This document shows positions 50,830-63,992 of a stretch of 64,000 bases of DNA, one piece after another; position 1 is the first letter of the stretch, and every line of letters begins with the position of its first letter. The stretch lies in NCBI RefSeq assembly GCF_013408535.1, contig NZ_JACBZA010000001.1:5664850-5728849 (forward strand). The letters are read 5' to 3'. The stretch comes from Actinopolymorpha cephalotaxi. Its GTDB lineage: Bacteria; Actinomycetota; Actinomycetes; Propionibacteriales; Actinopolymorphaceae. The notes below the pieces were generated by a model. It was not told where the DNA came from, did not search any database, and saw nothing but the letters and a program-made list of their open reading frames with translations. The position numbers and the translations under genes are program-made.

Positions 50830-55935
<5,106 letters not shown>

Positions 55936-56165
55936 ACCAACAAAAAGCCACCCCAGCAAACAAACAACCCGAAGGTCGCCTGTCACCAAAGGAATCCGCG
56001 ACAAAACACCACACAAACCCTCAGACAAAAAGCCCTCAGGCCCGCACAGCATTCTGCCAACGGGGCAAAAAACACTGCATCGACTTTCGGCACGCTGTTG
56101 AGTTCTCAAGGATCAGACACACACCAGAACCCAACTTCTCAGCCCGGCTCCAGGGCAACTCCTCT

Positions 56166-56194
56166 ACGTTACTTGCTCCGACCATCCGTGTCAA
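56166..56194 (-). promoter_or_regulatory. rRNA promoter, proximal (P3)
   Basis: TTGACA (56189-56194), 17 bp, TAACGT (56166-56171) on the minus strand: a near-consensus sigma-A promoter about 230 nt upstream of 16S. Downstream, TTGAGAACTCAA near 56100 and related boxes resemble rRNA antitermination/processing leader motifs. Confidence 0.8.
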
Positions 56195-56266
56195 CTCGGC
56201 TGTTCGGGGCACCCTCAAGATCCACTCAGAACGCCGAAGCGCTCCTGCGTTGATCTCTTTGGGGTG

Positions 56267-56325
56267 GTCGCTGGTCCGGCCACCTTTCGGTGTCCCGCTC
56301 TCTCAGCGACCCGGTAAACCTTACC
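56267..56325 (-). ncRNA. Structured leader element B at the start of the middle rRNA transcript
   Basis: On the minus strand GTCGCTG (56310-56304) pairs with CAGCGAC (56273-56267). Inside is AGAGAGCGGGA, a CACC-GAAA-GGTG tetraloop hairpin (56281-56292) and GGCCGGA. It begins at the expected +1 of the middle promoter. Element A (56428-56470) has the same plan with compensating base changes. Confidence 0.6.
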
Positions 56326-56346
56326 GATCTCGTCGCCGCCCGGCAA
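56318..56346 (-). promoter_or_regulatory. rRNA promoter, middle (P2)
   Basis: TTGCCG (56341-56346), 17 bp, TAAGGT (56318-56323) on the minus strand. The transcript should start near 56310, exactly where hairpin element B begins. Confidence 0.65.
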
Positions 56347-56427
56347 ATCGGGCTCTTCGTGACCGGCTCGCCTGGATCCTACGTCCGCCACACAGCTGTG
56401 TGACGTCCGGTATGTCCCTGCGAAGTG

Positions 56428-56470
56428 GCCGCCGTTCCGGCCGCCTTTCGGCGTCCCGCTCTCCGGCGAC
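56428..56470 (-). ncRNA. Structured leader element A at the start of the distal rRNA transcript
   Basis: On the minus strand GTCGCCG (56470-56464) pairs with CGGCGGC (56434-56428), with one G-U pair. Inside are GAGAGCGGGA, a CGCC-GAAA-GGCG hairpin (56442-56453) and GGCCGGA. Relative to element B the loop and single-stranded parts are conserved, while stem positions change in pairs. Confidence 0.6.
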
Positions 56471-56476
56471 TCGTAG

Positions 56477-56505
56477 AAGTTACATGGTCGTCTTGTGGTG
56501 GTCAA
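56477..56505 (-). promoter_or_regulatory. rRNA promoter, distal (P1)
   Basis: TTGACC (56500-56505), 17 bp, TAACTT (56477-56482) on the minus strand. The predicted start is at about 56470, the first base of hairpin element A. Confidence 0.7.
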
Positions 56506-56712: not shown

Positions 56713-58614
56713 CTACTTCTGCTCGCCACGCTTGTCGTCGTCGACGACCTCGCCCTCCACGACGTCGTCCCCACCGCCGGTGGGAGCGTCCCCTGTCGCG
56801 CCGGTGCCGTCGGGTCCGTCGGTGTGGTCGGCCGCCTCGCCGGTCGGGGCACCCTGCGCCTGCTCGGCGTTGGCGTAGATCGCCGAACCGATCTTGGTGC
56901 GCGACTCCGACAGCTTGTCGAACGCCGCCTTCACCGCGTCCGTGTCCTCACCCTCGAGGGCCTTCTTCAGCGCCGAGACGTCCTGCTCGACCTCCGACTT
57001 CACCTCGGCCGGAACGCTGTCGGGGTTGTCCGCGACGAACTTCTCCGTCTGGTAGATCAGCGAGTCCGCCTGGTTGCGCAACTCCGCTGCCTCACGCCGG
57101 AGACGGTCCTCCTCGGCGTACTGCTCCGCGTCCCGCACCATCCGCTCGATGTCGTCCTTGGGGAGAGCCGACCCACCCGTGACCGTCATCTTCTGCTCAC
57201 GACCCGTGCCCAGGTCCTTCGCCGACACGTGCACGATGCCGTTCGCGTCGATGTCGAAGGAGACCTCGATCTTGGGCACGCCGCGCGGCGCCGGTGCGAT
57301 CCCGGTGAGCTCGAAGTTGCCGAGGGACTTGTTGTCGGCCGCCATGGCCCGCTCGCCCTGGAACACCTCGATCAGGACGGACGGCTGCCCGTCGGCCGCG
57401 GTGGAGAAGACCTCCGACTTGGTGGTCGGGATCGTGGTGTTGCGCTCGATGATCTTGGTGAAGATGCCGCCCTGGCCCGACAGCCGGCCGGACGCGATGC
57501 CGAGGGACAGGGGAGTGACATCCAACAACAGGACATCCTTCACCTCACCCCGCAACACACCCGACTGCAACGACGCACCAATCGCCACCACCTCATCAGG
57601 ATTCACACCCTTGTGAGGCTCCTTACCACCCGTCAACTCCCGCACCAACTCAGCCACCGCAGGCATCCGCGTCGAACCACCCACCAGAATCACGTGATCG
57701 ATCTTCGCCACCTCGACCCCGCCATCCCGCAACACCTGCTGGAACGGACGACGACACCGCTCCAACAAATCCCCCGTCAACCGCTGGAACTCAGCACGAG
57801 TCAACTTCTCGTCCAAATGCAACGGACCCGACTCACCCAACGTCACATACGGCAGATTGATCGACGTCTCCGACGCCGACGACAACTCGATCTTCGCCTT
57901 CTCCGCAGCCTCCGTCAGCCGCTGCTTCGCGATCTTGTCCGCCCCAAGATCCACACCATGCTTGTTCTTGAACTGACCCACCAGCCAGTCCACGATCTTC
58001 GAATCCCAGTCATCCCCACCCAGAAGGTTGTCACCCGAGGTCGCCTTCACCTCGAACACACCCTCACCAATCTCCAACAACGACACATCAAACGTGCCAC
58101 CACCCAGATCGAACACCAGAATCGTCTGATCCGACCCCTTGTCCAACCCATACGCCAACGCAGCCGCCGTCGGCTCATTGATGATCCGCTGAACATTCAG
58201 CCCAGCAATCTCACCAGCCTCCTTCGTCGCCTGACGCTGCGCATCCGAAAAATACGCCGGCACGGTAATCACCGCATCCGTCACCGACTCCCCCAGATAC
58301 GCCTCCGCATCACGCTTCAACTTCTGCAACACAAACGCAGAAATCTGCTGCGCCGTAAACGGCTTCCCATCCACAGACGCCGACCAATCCGACCCCATAT
58401 GACGCTTCACCGAACGAATCGTCCGATCAACATTCGTCACCGCCTGCCGCTTCGCCACCTCCCCCACCAACACCTCACCATTCTTCGCAAACGCCACCAC
58501 CGACGGAGTCGTCCGCGCACCCTCCGCATTCGTCACAACCGTCGGCTCCCCACCCTCAAGAACCGCCACCACAGAATTCGTCGTACCAAGATCGATACCG
58601 ACCGAACGAGACAT
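56713..58614 (-). CDS. dnaK: Hsp70 chaperone DnaK
   Basis: Encodes 633 aa from ATG at 58614, with GGAGG about 9 nt upstream. The ATPase domain has [33 protein letters not shown] and [20 protein letters not shown]; the linker and substrate domain have [20 protein letters not shown]. The acidic tail ends [16 protein letters not shown]. It folds proteins with DnaJ and GrpE. It is unusual in lying after clpB rather than in front of grpE, with no HAIR operator seen upstream. From about 57520 to 58614 codons end mostly in G or T, while the 3' third uses the C/G-ending codons of the neighbours. Confidence 0.97.
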
Positions 58615-58640
58615 AACCACAAGCCTCCGAGCGAGATTGG

Positions 58641-58669
58641 GGTGCGGCGCCCGTGGAGGGCGCCGCACC
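58641..58669 (-). promoter_or_regulatory. 12-bp hairpin just upstream of the dnaK ribosome site
   Basis: GGTGCGGCGCCC (58641-58652) and its exact complement (58658-58669) enclose a 5-nt loop. It ends 12 nt before the GGAGG of dnaK. It could terminate clpB transcripts, attenuate dnaK, or be a stable 5' leader hairpin. Confidence 0.6.
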
Positions 58670-58781
58670 GGGTGTTGTCACCGATGAAGAGGGGAACCCG
58701 GCCGGCCGGCCGGATCGAATGGAGATCGAGATGGAGATCAGGAAGGACGTCGAGTCGACGTCGAGCGGACAGTGGTCGGTG

Positions 58782-58796
58782 CCCCCGTCGGGGGCG
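58782..58796 (-). terminator. Short hairpin after clpB
   Basis: GCCCCCG and CGGGGGC pair around a single base immediately after the clpB stop. Too tight a loop for an efficient hairpin on its own; weak terminator candidate. Confidence 0.35.
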
Positions 58797-58803
58797 GGCC
58801 GGG

Positions 58804-61419
<2,616 letters not shown>

Positions 61420-61529
61420 GGTTTCCGTGTCCCCGGTCTGGGTGTTCCCTGTCTGGATGTCCCGTGTCTGGGTGTCTGGGTGTCTGCGGTGCAGGCCCCC
61501 GTCGTCATCGGTCTTCTGCTGGCTGAACC

Positions 61530-61566
61530 ATCACGAAGTTGAGTCCATTCCACTCAACTTCGTGAT
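61530..61566 (-). promoter_or_regulatory. HAIR-type HspR operator upstream of clpB
   Basis: GTTGAGT-N7-ACTCAAC at 61538-61558 matches the HspR consensus CTTGAGT-N7-ACTCAAG at six of seven positions in each half. The symmetry continues outward to 15-bp arms (61530-61544 and 61552-61566). It lies between hspR and clpB. The longer arms could also make it a terminator of the hspR transcript. Confidence 0.8.
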
Positions 61567-61600
61567 CGTGCCGGGCCCTGGGTCATGGTGGTCCGCGAGA

Positions 61601-62071
61601 TCAGGGCTGTCGCCGGCGCCGAGTCCGGCCCTTCCAGACCACGACGGCCTGGCTCGGGCGGGGCAGCAGCTCGGGGAGGAAGGCCGCCTGCTCGGCGGCG
61701 CGTTCGAACATCAGCCGGGCGTCCTCGAGAGCGCCTTCCAGCTCCTGCACCCGACCGCCGAGCGCCTCGACGACGGACTCCAGCTCGAGAATCCGGCGCA
61801 CGCCCTCCAGGCCGATGCCTGCGGCGGTGAGCTCGATGACGTGCCGCAGGGTCTCGATGTCACGGAGGGAGTAGCGCCGGCCCCCGCCCCCCGACCGGCC
61901 CGGCCGAACCAGGCCGAGCCGGTCGTAGGTGCGAAGGGTCTGCGGGTGCAGGCCGGTGAGCTCGGCCGCGACGCTGATGACGTACACCGGCGTCTCGGCG
62001 TCCATCGACACGTCGAAGGCCGGCCGGGAGCGGCGTGAGCCGTCCGGCGCGCCGGCACGGGTACCCGTCAT
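61601..62071 (-). CDS. hspR: HspR heat-shock repressor (MerR family)
   Basis: Encodes 156 aa. ATG at 62071 overlaps the dnaJ stop as ATGA. The MerR-type HTH is VYVISVAAELTGLHPQTLRT followed by YDRLGLVRPGRSGGGGRRYS, the exact HspR pattern, with a coiled coil after it (LESVVEALGGRVQELEGALE). HspR binds HAIR elements with DnaK as co-repressor and turns off dnaK and clpB operons when unfolded protein is low. The final RTRRRRQP tail is highly basic. Being translated with dnaJ fits autoregulation of the operon. Confidence 0.95.
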   Translation of the reverse strand: MTGTRAGAPDGSRRSRPAFDVSMDAETPVYVISVAAELTGLHPQTLRTYDRLGLVRPGRSGGGGRRYSLRDIETLRHVIELTAAGIGLEGVRRILELESVVEALGGRVQELEGALEDARLMFERAAEQAAFLPELLPRPSQAVVVWKGRTRRRRQP

Positions 62072-63258
62072 CGGACGCCTTCCTTCCCGTCGTACTCACC
62101 GCGCGCCGCGTCGCTTCCGGTCGCCCGGCGGTAGGCGTCGAGGGCTTCCCGGGCCTTGTCGTCGAGATGGTCCGGAACGACCACCTCCACGGTGACCAGC
62201 AGGTCGCCCTTGGTGCCGTCCCGGCGGGCCGCTCCCTTGCCGCGTACGCGGAACGTACGGCCGTTGGGTGTGCCCGGCGGGACCTTCAGGGTGACCAGCG
62301 GGCCGGCGAGCGTGGGCACCTTCACCTCACCACCGAGCGCCGCCTCGGGGAACGAGATCGGCACGGTGACGGTGAGGTGCTCGCCCTTGCGGCCGAACCG
62401 CTCGTCCGCCTGTACGTGCACGGTGACGTACAGGTCGCCGGCCGGTCCGCCCCGCTCGCCCGCGGCGCCCTTGGCGCGCAGGCGGATGCGCTGGTTGTCG
62501 TACACCCCGGCCGGGATGCGCACCTGCATCGTGCGGGCCGACTCCGCCCGGCCCGAACCGTGGCAGGTGGGGCACGGGTTGTCGACCACCAGGCCGCGGC
62601 CCCGGCAGGAGCGGCACGGCTCGGTCATCGCCAGCCGGCCGCCCTGGGAGGTGGCCCGCATCCCGACGCCCTCGCAGTCCGGGCACACCCGCGGCATCGT
62701 GCCGGCCTTCGCGCCGGTGCCCGAACACGCCGGGCACGGCGCGTCGCTGGTCATCCGGAGCGGGACCGTCACACCGTCGACCGCGTCCCGGAAGCCGATG
62801 GTGACCTCGGTCTCCACGTCGGCGCCCCGGCGCGGGCGGGTGCCCGGCGGGGTCCGGGTGCGCCCGCCGGTGAAGATGCCACCGAGGATGTCGCCCAGAC
62901 CGCCGCCCCCGCGGTTGCCGCCCTGCTGCTGGGTGAAGATGTCGCCGAGGTCGAACGGAAAACCGCCGCCGGCCTGGCCGCCGGCTCCTCCGCCGCCGCC
63001 GGGGAAGCGGAACCCGCCTCCACCGAACAGCGACCGAGCCTCGTCGTACTCCTTGCGCTTGGCCGGGTCGGAGAGGACGGAGTAGGCCTCGGAAACCTCC
63101 TTGAACCGCTCCTCCGCCTTGGCGTCACCCCGGTTGGCGTCGGGGTGGTTGGCCCGGGCGAGCTTGCGGTAGGACTTTTTGATCTCCTCGGGCTTCGCAT
63201 CCTTGGAGACGCCGAGCACCTTGTAGAAGTCCTTCTCGAGCCATTCCTTGGTGCCCAT
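62068..63258 (-). CDS. dnaJ: DnaJ co-chaperone
   Basis: Encodes 396 aa from ATG at 63258, with GGGGAG upstream. The J domain has KDFYKVLGVSKDAKPEEIKK and the HPD triad in RANHPDANRGD. A Gly/Phe region (FGGGGFRFPGGGGG) and four zinc-finger CxxCxGxG repeats follow: CPACSGTG, CPDCEGVG, CRSCRGRG, CPTCHGSG. It stimulates DnaK ATPase and presents substrates. It sits between grpE (23 nt) and hspR (4-nt overlap), the usual DnaJ1 position in actinobacteria. Confidence 0.96.
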   Translation of the reverse strand: MGTKEWLEKDFYKVLGVSKDAKPEEIKKSYRKLARANHPDANRGDAKAEERFKEVSEAYSVLSDPAKRKEYDEARSLFGGGGFRFPGGGGGAGGQAGGGFPFDLGDIFTQQQGGNRGGGGLGDILGGIFTGGRTRTPPGTRPRRGADVETEVTIGFRDAVDGVTVPLRMTSDAPCPACSGTGAKAGTMPRVCPDCEGVGMRATSQGGRLAMTEPCRSCRGRGLVVDNPCPTCHGSGRAESARTMQVRIPAGVYDNQRIRLRAKGAAGERGGPAGDLYVTVHVQADERFGRKGEHLTVTVPISFPEAALGGEVKVPTLAGPLVTLKVPPGTPNGRTFRVRGKGAARRDGTKGDLLVTVEVVVPDHLDDKAREALDAYRRATGSDAARGEYDGKEGVR

Positions 63259-63281
63259 GGTGCTCCCCACCTCCCCCTTGC

Positions 63282-63992
63282 TCAGCCGTTGTCGGTCGGC
63301 GGCTGGTCATCGGCGCCCGCCGTGGCACCTTCGTCCGCCCCGGCGGCCGGCTCGGCGTCGGCGCTCTGCGCCGCCTGCTCCGGCGGCAGCCCGACGGTGG
63401 GTTCGGTGACCGCGACCCGGGCCGGCCGCAGCACCCGCTCGCCCAGCCGGTAGCCCGGCTGGAGGATGGCCGAGCACGTCGGCCCCGACACGTCGTCGGA
63501 GTACGCGTGCATGAGCGCGTCGTGCACCCGCGGATCGAACTCGTCGCCGGCCTCGCCGAACTTCACCAGCCCGAGCTTGGACAACGAGGTTTCCAGCGCC
63601 TCGGACACCGCCTTGAACCCGCCGGACAACTCCTCGTGCTCACGGGCCCGGCCGATGTCGTCGAGGACCGGGAGGAGTTCGGTCAGCACGCTGCCGACGG
63701 CGTGTTCCTGGTTGGCCTGCCGGTCGCGGTCGACCCGCCGCTTGTAGTTGACGTACTCCGCCTGGAGCCGCTTGAGGTCGTTGGTGCGTTCGGCGACGGC
63801 CAGCTTGAGCGCCTCCACCTCCGCGGCGGACGCCGCGGAGGCCTCCTCGGCACCGCCAGGCTCACCGGTCGTGGCAGTGGCCCCCGCGTCGGGTTCGGCC
63901 GCTTCGCCGGCGCCGGGCGAAGGCGCGGTCGCGCGCGCCTCCTCCCGGATCTGCCCGGTGCGCGGGTCGATGCGCCGCCGGTCGTGGACCAC
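63282..63992 (-). CDS. grpE: GrpE nucleotide exchange factor
   Basis: Encodes 236 aa from GTG at 63992, preceded by AAGGA at the very edge of the window; the true start may lie a little further upstream, since related proteins have a longer N-terminus before RRIDPRTG. The long helix carries LKRLQAEYVNYKRRVDRDRQ, and the beta domain has FDPRVHDALMHAYSDD and AILQPGYRLGERVLRPARVA. GrpE releases ADP from DnaK. The C-terminus has an extra Ala/Pro/Asp/Glu tail. In actinobacteria dnaK normally precedes grpE, so a dnaK may lie just beyond the window. Confidence 0.93.
   Translation of the reverse strand: MVHDRRRIDPRTGQIREEARATAPSPGAGEAAEPDAGATATTGEPGGAEEASAASAAEVEALKLAVAERTNDLKRLQAEYVNYKRRVDRDRQANQEHAVGSVLTELLPVLDDIGRAREHEELSGGFKAVSEALETSLSKLGLVKFGEAGDEFDPRVHDALMHAYSDDVSGPTCSAILQPGYRLGERVLRPARVAVTEPTVGLPPEQAAQSADAEPAAGADEGATAGADDQPPTDNG

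Follow-up and report, generated by a model that had tools for sequence, protein, structure and literature searches.

To our knowledge, the control of rRNA synthesis in actinomycetes is poorly understood, and attention has so far been on promoters and protein factors. Nut-type rRNA antitermination relies on linear boxes that lie past the last promoter, within the common leader; in Escherichia coli, rRNA antitermination runs from boxes after P2, without an element of the kind described here. A different type of nascent RNA is known from phage HK022. Its putRNA, about 70 nt of two adjacent stem-loops in the phage early operons, binds RNA polymerase directly, according to the part of PMC9378689 available to us. 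In mycobacteria, CL1/CL2 is a conserved sequence directly past the -10 box of an rRNA promoter (PCL1), as described in the accessible part of PMC10218544. For Propionibacterium acnes, PMC3848588 reports a TAnnnT motif centred at -9 for 92 transcript starts of the translation machinery, and assigns two starts to every one of the three rRNA operons.

The locus analysed here lies in the window, by which we mean the whole stretch of 64,000 nucleotides from Actinopolymorpha cephalotaxi. An earlier note on this DNA had proposed that two of three tandem rRNA promoters begin with the same covarying hairpin. We searched for relatives of this hairpin and compared its possible functions.

The rRNA promoters of the window and their hairpins

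On the minus strand, a 16S-23S-5S operon lies downstream of three sigma70-like promoters, P1 (56505-56477), P2 (56346-56318) and P3 (56194-56166), whose spacers of exactly 17 bp are as the earlier note had read them. The features are as follows (hexamers and leader box read from the sequence itself; scores from R3, a covariance model defined below).

56500..56505, minus strand, -35 hexamer of P1, TTGACC
56477..56482, minus strand, -10 hexamer of P1, TAACTT, 17-bp spacer
56428..56470, minus strand, hairpin copy 1, 43 nt, first base at the predicted +1 of P1 (R3 51.5 bits, 56478-56422)
56341..56346, minus strand, -35 hexamer of P2, TTGCCG
56318..56323, minus strand, -10 hexamer of P2, TAAGGT, 17-bp spacer
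56267..56310, minus strand, hairpin copy 2, 44 nt, one base past the predicted +1 of P2 (R3 50.4 bits, 56318-56261)
56189..56194, minus strand, -35 hexamer of P3 (proximal), TTGACA
56166..56171, minus strand, -10 hexamer of P3, TAACGT, 17-bp spacer
56090..56110, minus strand, CTTGAGAACTCAACAGCGTGC, box C / antitermination-like part of the common rRNA leader
54417..55933, minus strand, 16S rRNA (Rfam RF00177)

The outer stems of the two copies read GTCGCCG/CGGCGGC and GTCGCTG/CAGCGAC, with compensatory changes between them, and the GAAA-capped inner stems read CGCC/GGCG and CACC/GGTG, both as claimed. The further description of a 43-nt element with identical joining sequences holds for the shared hairpin and requires correction in its details: the P2 copy is 44 nt long, an additional A preceding GAGAGCGGGA, and the two 3' joiners end in different bases (GCCGGAA versus GCCGGAC). 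Judged from the -10 positions, with no start mapped, copy 1 starts on +1 and copy 2 one base later. Single-sequence folding gave z = -1.78 for the P1 copy and z = -3.64 for the P2 copy, and would not by itself have proved the structure.

The 6.86-Mb genome carries two rRNA operons. A strict core pattern found only the two window sites (reversed control, 0), and the covariance models found four copies, the additional two lying after the two distal promoters of the second operon. In the distal copy of that operon (L002:1373-1425) the GAAA cap is lost (CGCCAACTGGCG) and the outer stem is shortened; L009, L015 and L016, which come from three genomes of the genus, show this capless form too, and it represents a paralogous subtype. 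When named genomes were scanned with the pattern, one record matched, Actinopolymorpha rutila (L051), with two strong model matches upstream of 16S and a weak one elsewhere (14.8 bits).

P3 is followed by a GTTGCCC leader, the hairpin element is absent there, and no R3 match was found after P3 in the window. A similar GTTGCCC stands at many other proximal promoters among the matches listed. By eye, proximal transcripts commonly start with GTTGCCC, often with a GNRA-capped hairpin next (for example L220, and 56160-56111 in the window), which may be a second structured leader element. The string at 56110-56090, presumably a NusA-binding box, has a match in 35 of the 39 R3-match regions checked. 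A palindrome-like stretch, ACGTCACACAGCTGTGTGGCGGACGT, lies between the first hairpin and P2 (56381-56406, minus strand).

Directly upstream of the rRNA promoters and on the same strand, a heat-shock cluster (56713-63992, minus strand) comprises GrpE, DnaJ, a MerR-type HspR-like regulator, ClpB and Hsp70/DnaK. An inverted repeat upstream of clpB (61538-61558) has 2 mismatches to CTTGAGT-N7-ACTCAAG, which we take to be the HspR-type consensus; when up to 3 mismatches are allowed, the window contains 2 matches, and 15 of 100 shuffles contain at least as many. For Streptomyces coelicolor, PMC2687793 reports that HspR gave a ChIP signal at the rRNA promoter region of rrnD.

Relatives, consensus structure and position

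Relatives were sought with three successive covariance models and a core regex. R1, built from 20 sequences, matched 48 of 147 genomes of the order at E <= 0.01, 8 in family label f1, 38 in genus g5 of f3 and 2 in f2. One of these, G142 (f2), was judged false, as neither a promoter nor 16S was seen. On inspection, distal promoters of other f2 members (L269, L270, L271, L275) are followed by copies, and the core was not seen in the f2 genera g7 and g10. The 16S start lay in the fetched locus for 53 of the 61 order matches laid out; the remaining order sites were not all checked. R2 matched 34 of 296 genomes of the class, many of the matches being real and many lying in apparently coding DNA; those in f4 and others were judged chance by eye and not counted as members.

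R3, built from 54 sequences, matched 62 of 394 class genomes at E <= 0.01, at 86 sites, one genome match being judged false. Since the genome search scores few candidates per genome, match counts are lower bounds. A 16S start follows on the same strand, about 330-570 nt downstream, at 52 of the 86 sites (19 best loci, 16 later regions and 17 by coordinates), and a leader-box string at 27 (19 of them by looser match), making 79 rRNA-linked sites in total. At six sites a contig end or N-run precedes any 16S or box, so that linkage cannot be told, and the last, G403, is not rRNA and was set aside as chance. The earlier note had stated that its proposal would fall if a covariance search found no support outside this locus; the order-wide and class-wide matches, with one false in each, provide that support.

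Across the phylum, a sample of 296 genomes yielded 2 matching ones, both within the class. Real members occur in at least 21 family labels of class Actinomycetes (f1, f2, f3, f5, f9, f12, f14, f15, f16, f19, f20, f23, f24, f28, f31, f33, f34, f41, f43, f47 and f49). The core regex, tested on 83 16S-anchored upstream regions of at least 450 nt, matched directly after a promoter in 40, five of which look like chance (L124, L131, L151, L157, L178). Of the 43 regions without a match, at least L130 and L145 are members by alignment; regions without a recognisable core include ones that we take to be from Streptomyces and mycobacteria. Distal rRNA promoters without a recognisable core in L118-L122, L168-L171 and L184-L191 start with other hairpins, some of them perhaps diverged homologues. 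In f21, the core helix seems by eye to have A-U instead of G-C.

For the alignments, 20 of the rRNA-linked matches were picked by eye (A2), and 53 rows from 42 loci, without the false match L053 and near-duplicates, formed A4, whose 51 distinct rows are A5. The widest alignment, A6, holds 54 of 65 candidate rows, with L130, L145, L153 and L167 re-cut. L010:1680, L011:1831, both L016 rows, L083:1662, L085:148, L114:1196, L115, L137, L163 and L183 were dropped by eye; L117, L124, L129, L131, L151, L154, L155, L157 and L178 had been left out before the candidate set, although L117 and L129 are R3 matches.

The consensus is one hairpin per element, 43-44 nt in the window and longer in some relatives. 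An outer helix of variable sequence begins near +1 and leads to an internal loop with unequal sides, roughly GNRA facing G or GNG facing G. Next come a C-G pair, a bulged purine in some families, two G-C pairs and an A.G mismatch; the core thus amounts to a short C-GG/CC-G helix to which the asymmetric loop and the A.G mismatch belong. The capping hairpin is very variable in length. A first model that paired CGG/CCG straight through left two A.C mismatches and was abandoned; these vanished once the purine was read as a bulge (C-R-GG-A), and class-wide members without the purine were found later. The least variable part is the core, which is far more conserved than the helix, and not the capping loop, as would be expected of a binding surface.

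Covariation was scored on the two larger alignments. A5 scored 0.287 against 0.174 when shuffled and at most 0.143 in slid controls, with double changes in 9 of 14 pairs; the A6 score was 0.260 against 0.124 and at most 0.070, with both sides changing in 7 of 10 pairs. In A6, the two G-C pairs are kept in 54/54 and 52/54 rows and the first inner pair in 53/54, and the next inner pair is A-U in 25 rows and G-C in 25. These figures carry two caveats: the structures were drawn from the very sequences tested, and relatedness of the sequences inflates shuffle tests. Other measures were weaker. Owing to a shifting register, no more than 71.1% of the cells of the A5 outer helix are paired, and 41 of 500 shuffles reached the A5 count of further pair types. 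RNAalifold gave only -2.03 kcal/mol and 7 pairs on A6, and single folds across members ranged from z = -3.78 to -0.04, the weak ones being -0.40 and -0.04.

By design, 139 distinct related elements were gathered by regex at rRNA promoters, next to rRNA leaders. A minimum-free-energy helix surrounds the core in 125 and is missing in 14; an enclosing helix of 7 or more pairs was found in 116/139 real elements versus 396/695 with shuffled GC-rich flanks. The promoter spacer is 17 or 18 bp in 137 of the 139 (15-20 allowed), and the core starts 18-22 nt past the -10 box in 102 (14-30 allowed). Among the 125 folded elements, the enclosing helix starts 1-12 nt past the -10 box in 122, in folds that included the untranscribed 6 nt. 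R3 matches have a TTGNNN/TANNNT promoter directly upstream in 37 of 39 cases, and in 30/30 of the best loci. With TAnnnT centred at -9, as the available part of PMC3848588 has it, the hairpin is inferred to start at about +1. The proposal of a selected RNA structure at the predicted 5' end of the rRNA precursor is thereby supported by compensatory changes and by relatives at rRNA promoters, with the start itself inferred.

The elements belong to distal promoters. In 85 distinct regions with a 16S, a leader box and an element, a promoter-like site lies nearer the box than the element in 79, versus 4 on the other strand as control; the exceptions are L104, L112, L117, L146, L150 and L163. The core-to-box distance is 113-358 nt (median 207). 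Only the last 600 nt before 16S were considered, so that second elements farther away are missed. Three core-like strings follow proximal promoters, of which those in L114 and L220 look by eye like part of a simple leader hairpin. A terminator (perfect stem of 5 or more and 5 T in 7, within 170 nt) follows the element in 1 of the 139.

No Rfam 15 family matched the element in the window or in five diverse loci, where at gathering score only rRNA was found, in line with the earlier note's failure to recognise a riboswitch or leader; below that score appeared one miRNA model (E 5.9) and, elsewhere in L103, one CRISPR repeat model. A literature search restricted to open-licence papers, by titles and the starts of abstracts, yielded nothing describing the element among the matches listed. 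The rRNA passages of two structured-RNA surveys (PMC2864571 and PMC6429828) contain no rRNA-leader motif of such kind, and PMC4681348 mentions no such hairpin in 12 of its 45 relevant places. On sequence evidence alone, a conserved RNA family almost certainly exists at distal rRNA promoters of actinomycetes, and we rate it as a putative new family within a known broad kind, cis-acting leader RNA.

Possible functions of the element

The reading that we prefer, at a probability of about 0.4, is that the element is a cis-acting structured RNA forming the 5' end of rRNA transcripts from distal promoters, with an antiterminating or antipausing action like that of putRNA; function and transcript start are both inferred. 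Antitermination or antipausing of polymerases from the distal promoters is the most likely function, though held tentatively, as it is inferred without transcript, binding or termination data. The hairpin would fold once the first 45-60 nt have left the polymerase, and its conserved internal-loop core would be bound either by the elongating polymerase itself or by a ribosomal or transcription protein. In this way, polymerases from distal promoters would stay resistant to pausing and Rho while crossing the untranslated leader and passing the proximal promoter, and the common Nus-type boxes ahead of 16S would then assume the role. The mode would be like that of putRNA, without membership in that family. 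Because distal polymerases cross untranslated leader before reaching the common box, a nascent-RNA element acting on polymerase fits the near-fixed position at the predicted +1, the distal promoters, the rRNA operons, the conserved core with free caps and the scarcity of terminators.

Several points were counted against this putRNA-like mode. putRNA has two stem-loops and the element one, and many actinomycetes lack a recognisable core. Furthermore, only 62 of 394 class genomes matched (a lower bound), the RNAalifold result and some single folds are weak, and shuffled flanks pair often.

Protection of the 5' end is unlikely, although not excluded. The hairpin would bury the first nucleotides and shield distal precursors from pyrophosphohydrolase and RNase J until processing, and the helix start, 1-12 nt past the -10 box in nearly all folded elements, leaves the 5' end paired or nearly so. 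Yet any helix would serve this purpose, whereas the core is far more conserved than the helix; transcripts from proximal promoters lack the element, and rRNA precursors are soon cut out by RNase III anyway.

An improbable reading, which again cannot be excluded, is a feedback site at which a ribosomal protein or assembly factor in excess binds the core and damps distal rRNA synthesis. Ribosomal protein targets typically have a small, conserved internal-loop core and variable caps, and 79 of the 86 class matches are rRNA-linked, with only one clear exception. However, R3 has no match in the window's own 16S, 23S and 5S, and a mimic of rRNA by sequence was rejected on that result, which is at sequence level only; mimics of ribosomal protein sites are often structural.

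Ligand sensing, that is, a small-molecule aptamer tying rRNA synthesis to a growth signal, also remains unexcluded and is quite improbable. Conserved purine-rich internal loops closed by variable helices, the absence from Rfam and the tandem copies on tandem promoters would suit it, but the core is small for an aptamer and there is no obvious expression platform. A terminator-like hairpin with a T-run in one of the 139 elements, by a strict test, likewise means that the element is not a plain attenuator, and an attenuator or riboswitch with an intrinsic terminator was rejected, as was a known Rfam class for want of a match in the window and the five loci.

It is very unlikely that the sequence past +1 merely sets promoter escape, the hairpin helping the nascent RNA to leave: the near-fixed position relative to the -10 box agrees with such an effect on initial transcription, but covariation over 45-60 nt and the identity of the loops extend well past the initially transcribed region. 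Finally, a DNA operator with dyad symmetry is hardly tenable, for although every RNA hairpin is also a DNA inverted repeat, the bulged purine, the A.G mismatch and above all the asymmetric internal loops and the frequent G-U pairs (150 of 1435 enclosing pairs), on which we rejected it, argue for RNA.

Comparison with known systems

At least 21 family labels share a covarying RNA at the predicted distal rRNA start that Rfam 15 does not list, which points to control exerted after initiation. Like riboswitches and the leader RNAs catalogued in Rfam 15, the element is 5', structured, covarying and predicted to act in cis; it differs from them in having no Rfam match, and a terminator platform in only 1/139. 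Were it to bind a ligand, it would count as a riboswitch controlling rRNA.

With mycobacterial CL1/CL2 the element shares its place directly past a -10 box. The CL1/CL2 position, as given in PMC10218544, corresponds however to the proximal GTTGCCC leader and not to the hairpin, and the terms 'secondary structure' and 'stem-loop' do not occur in the main text of that paper. The element was accordingly rejected as a CL1 motif, the leader of the promoter adjoining the common leader, on the nearer promoter-like sites in 79/85 regions and the lack of an R3 match after P3.

The nut-type antitermination leader (boxA, box C) also lies in the rRNA leader, and the element could serve the same end. It is folded, however, and stands before the proximal promoter, and the box-like string at 56110-56090 is separate from it, both being present in the window.

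The likeness to HK022 putRNA goes further. Both would be nascent cis RNAs with pairing at the 5' end (putL, A3 in putRNA) just after the promoter, on early untranslated RNA, as the accessible part of PMC9378689 describes for the phage; for the element this holds if transcription, whose start is unmapped, begins where the -10 box predicts. The differences are the single hairpin, the different core and the bacterial rRNA operons. putRNA binds the beta' zinc-binding domain and suppresses termination and pausing, and for the element there are no binding data. At somewhat less than even odds, a host-encoded, ancient and class-wide element of this kind, or a growth-signal sensor, would make distal polymerases behave unlike proximal ones and provide an RNA-based setting of rRNA output. 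Should the element prove to be an antiterminator, phage putRNA would have a chromosomal counterpart.
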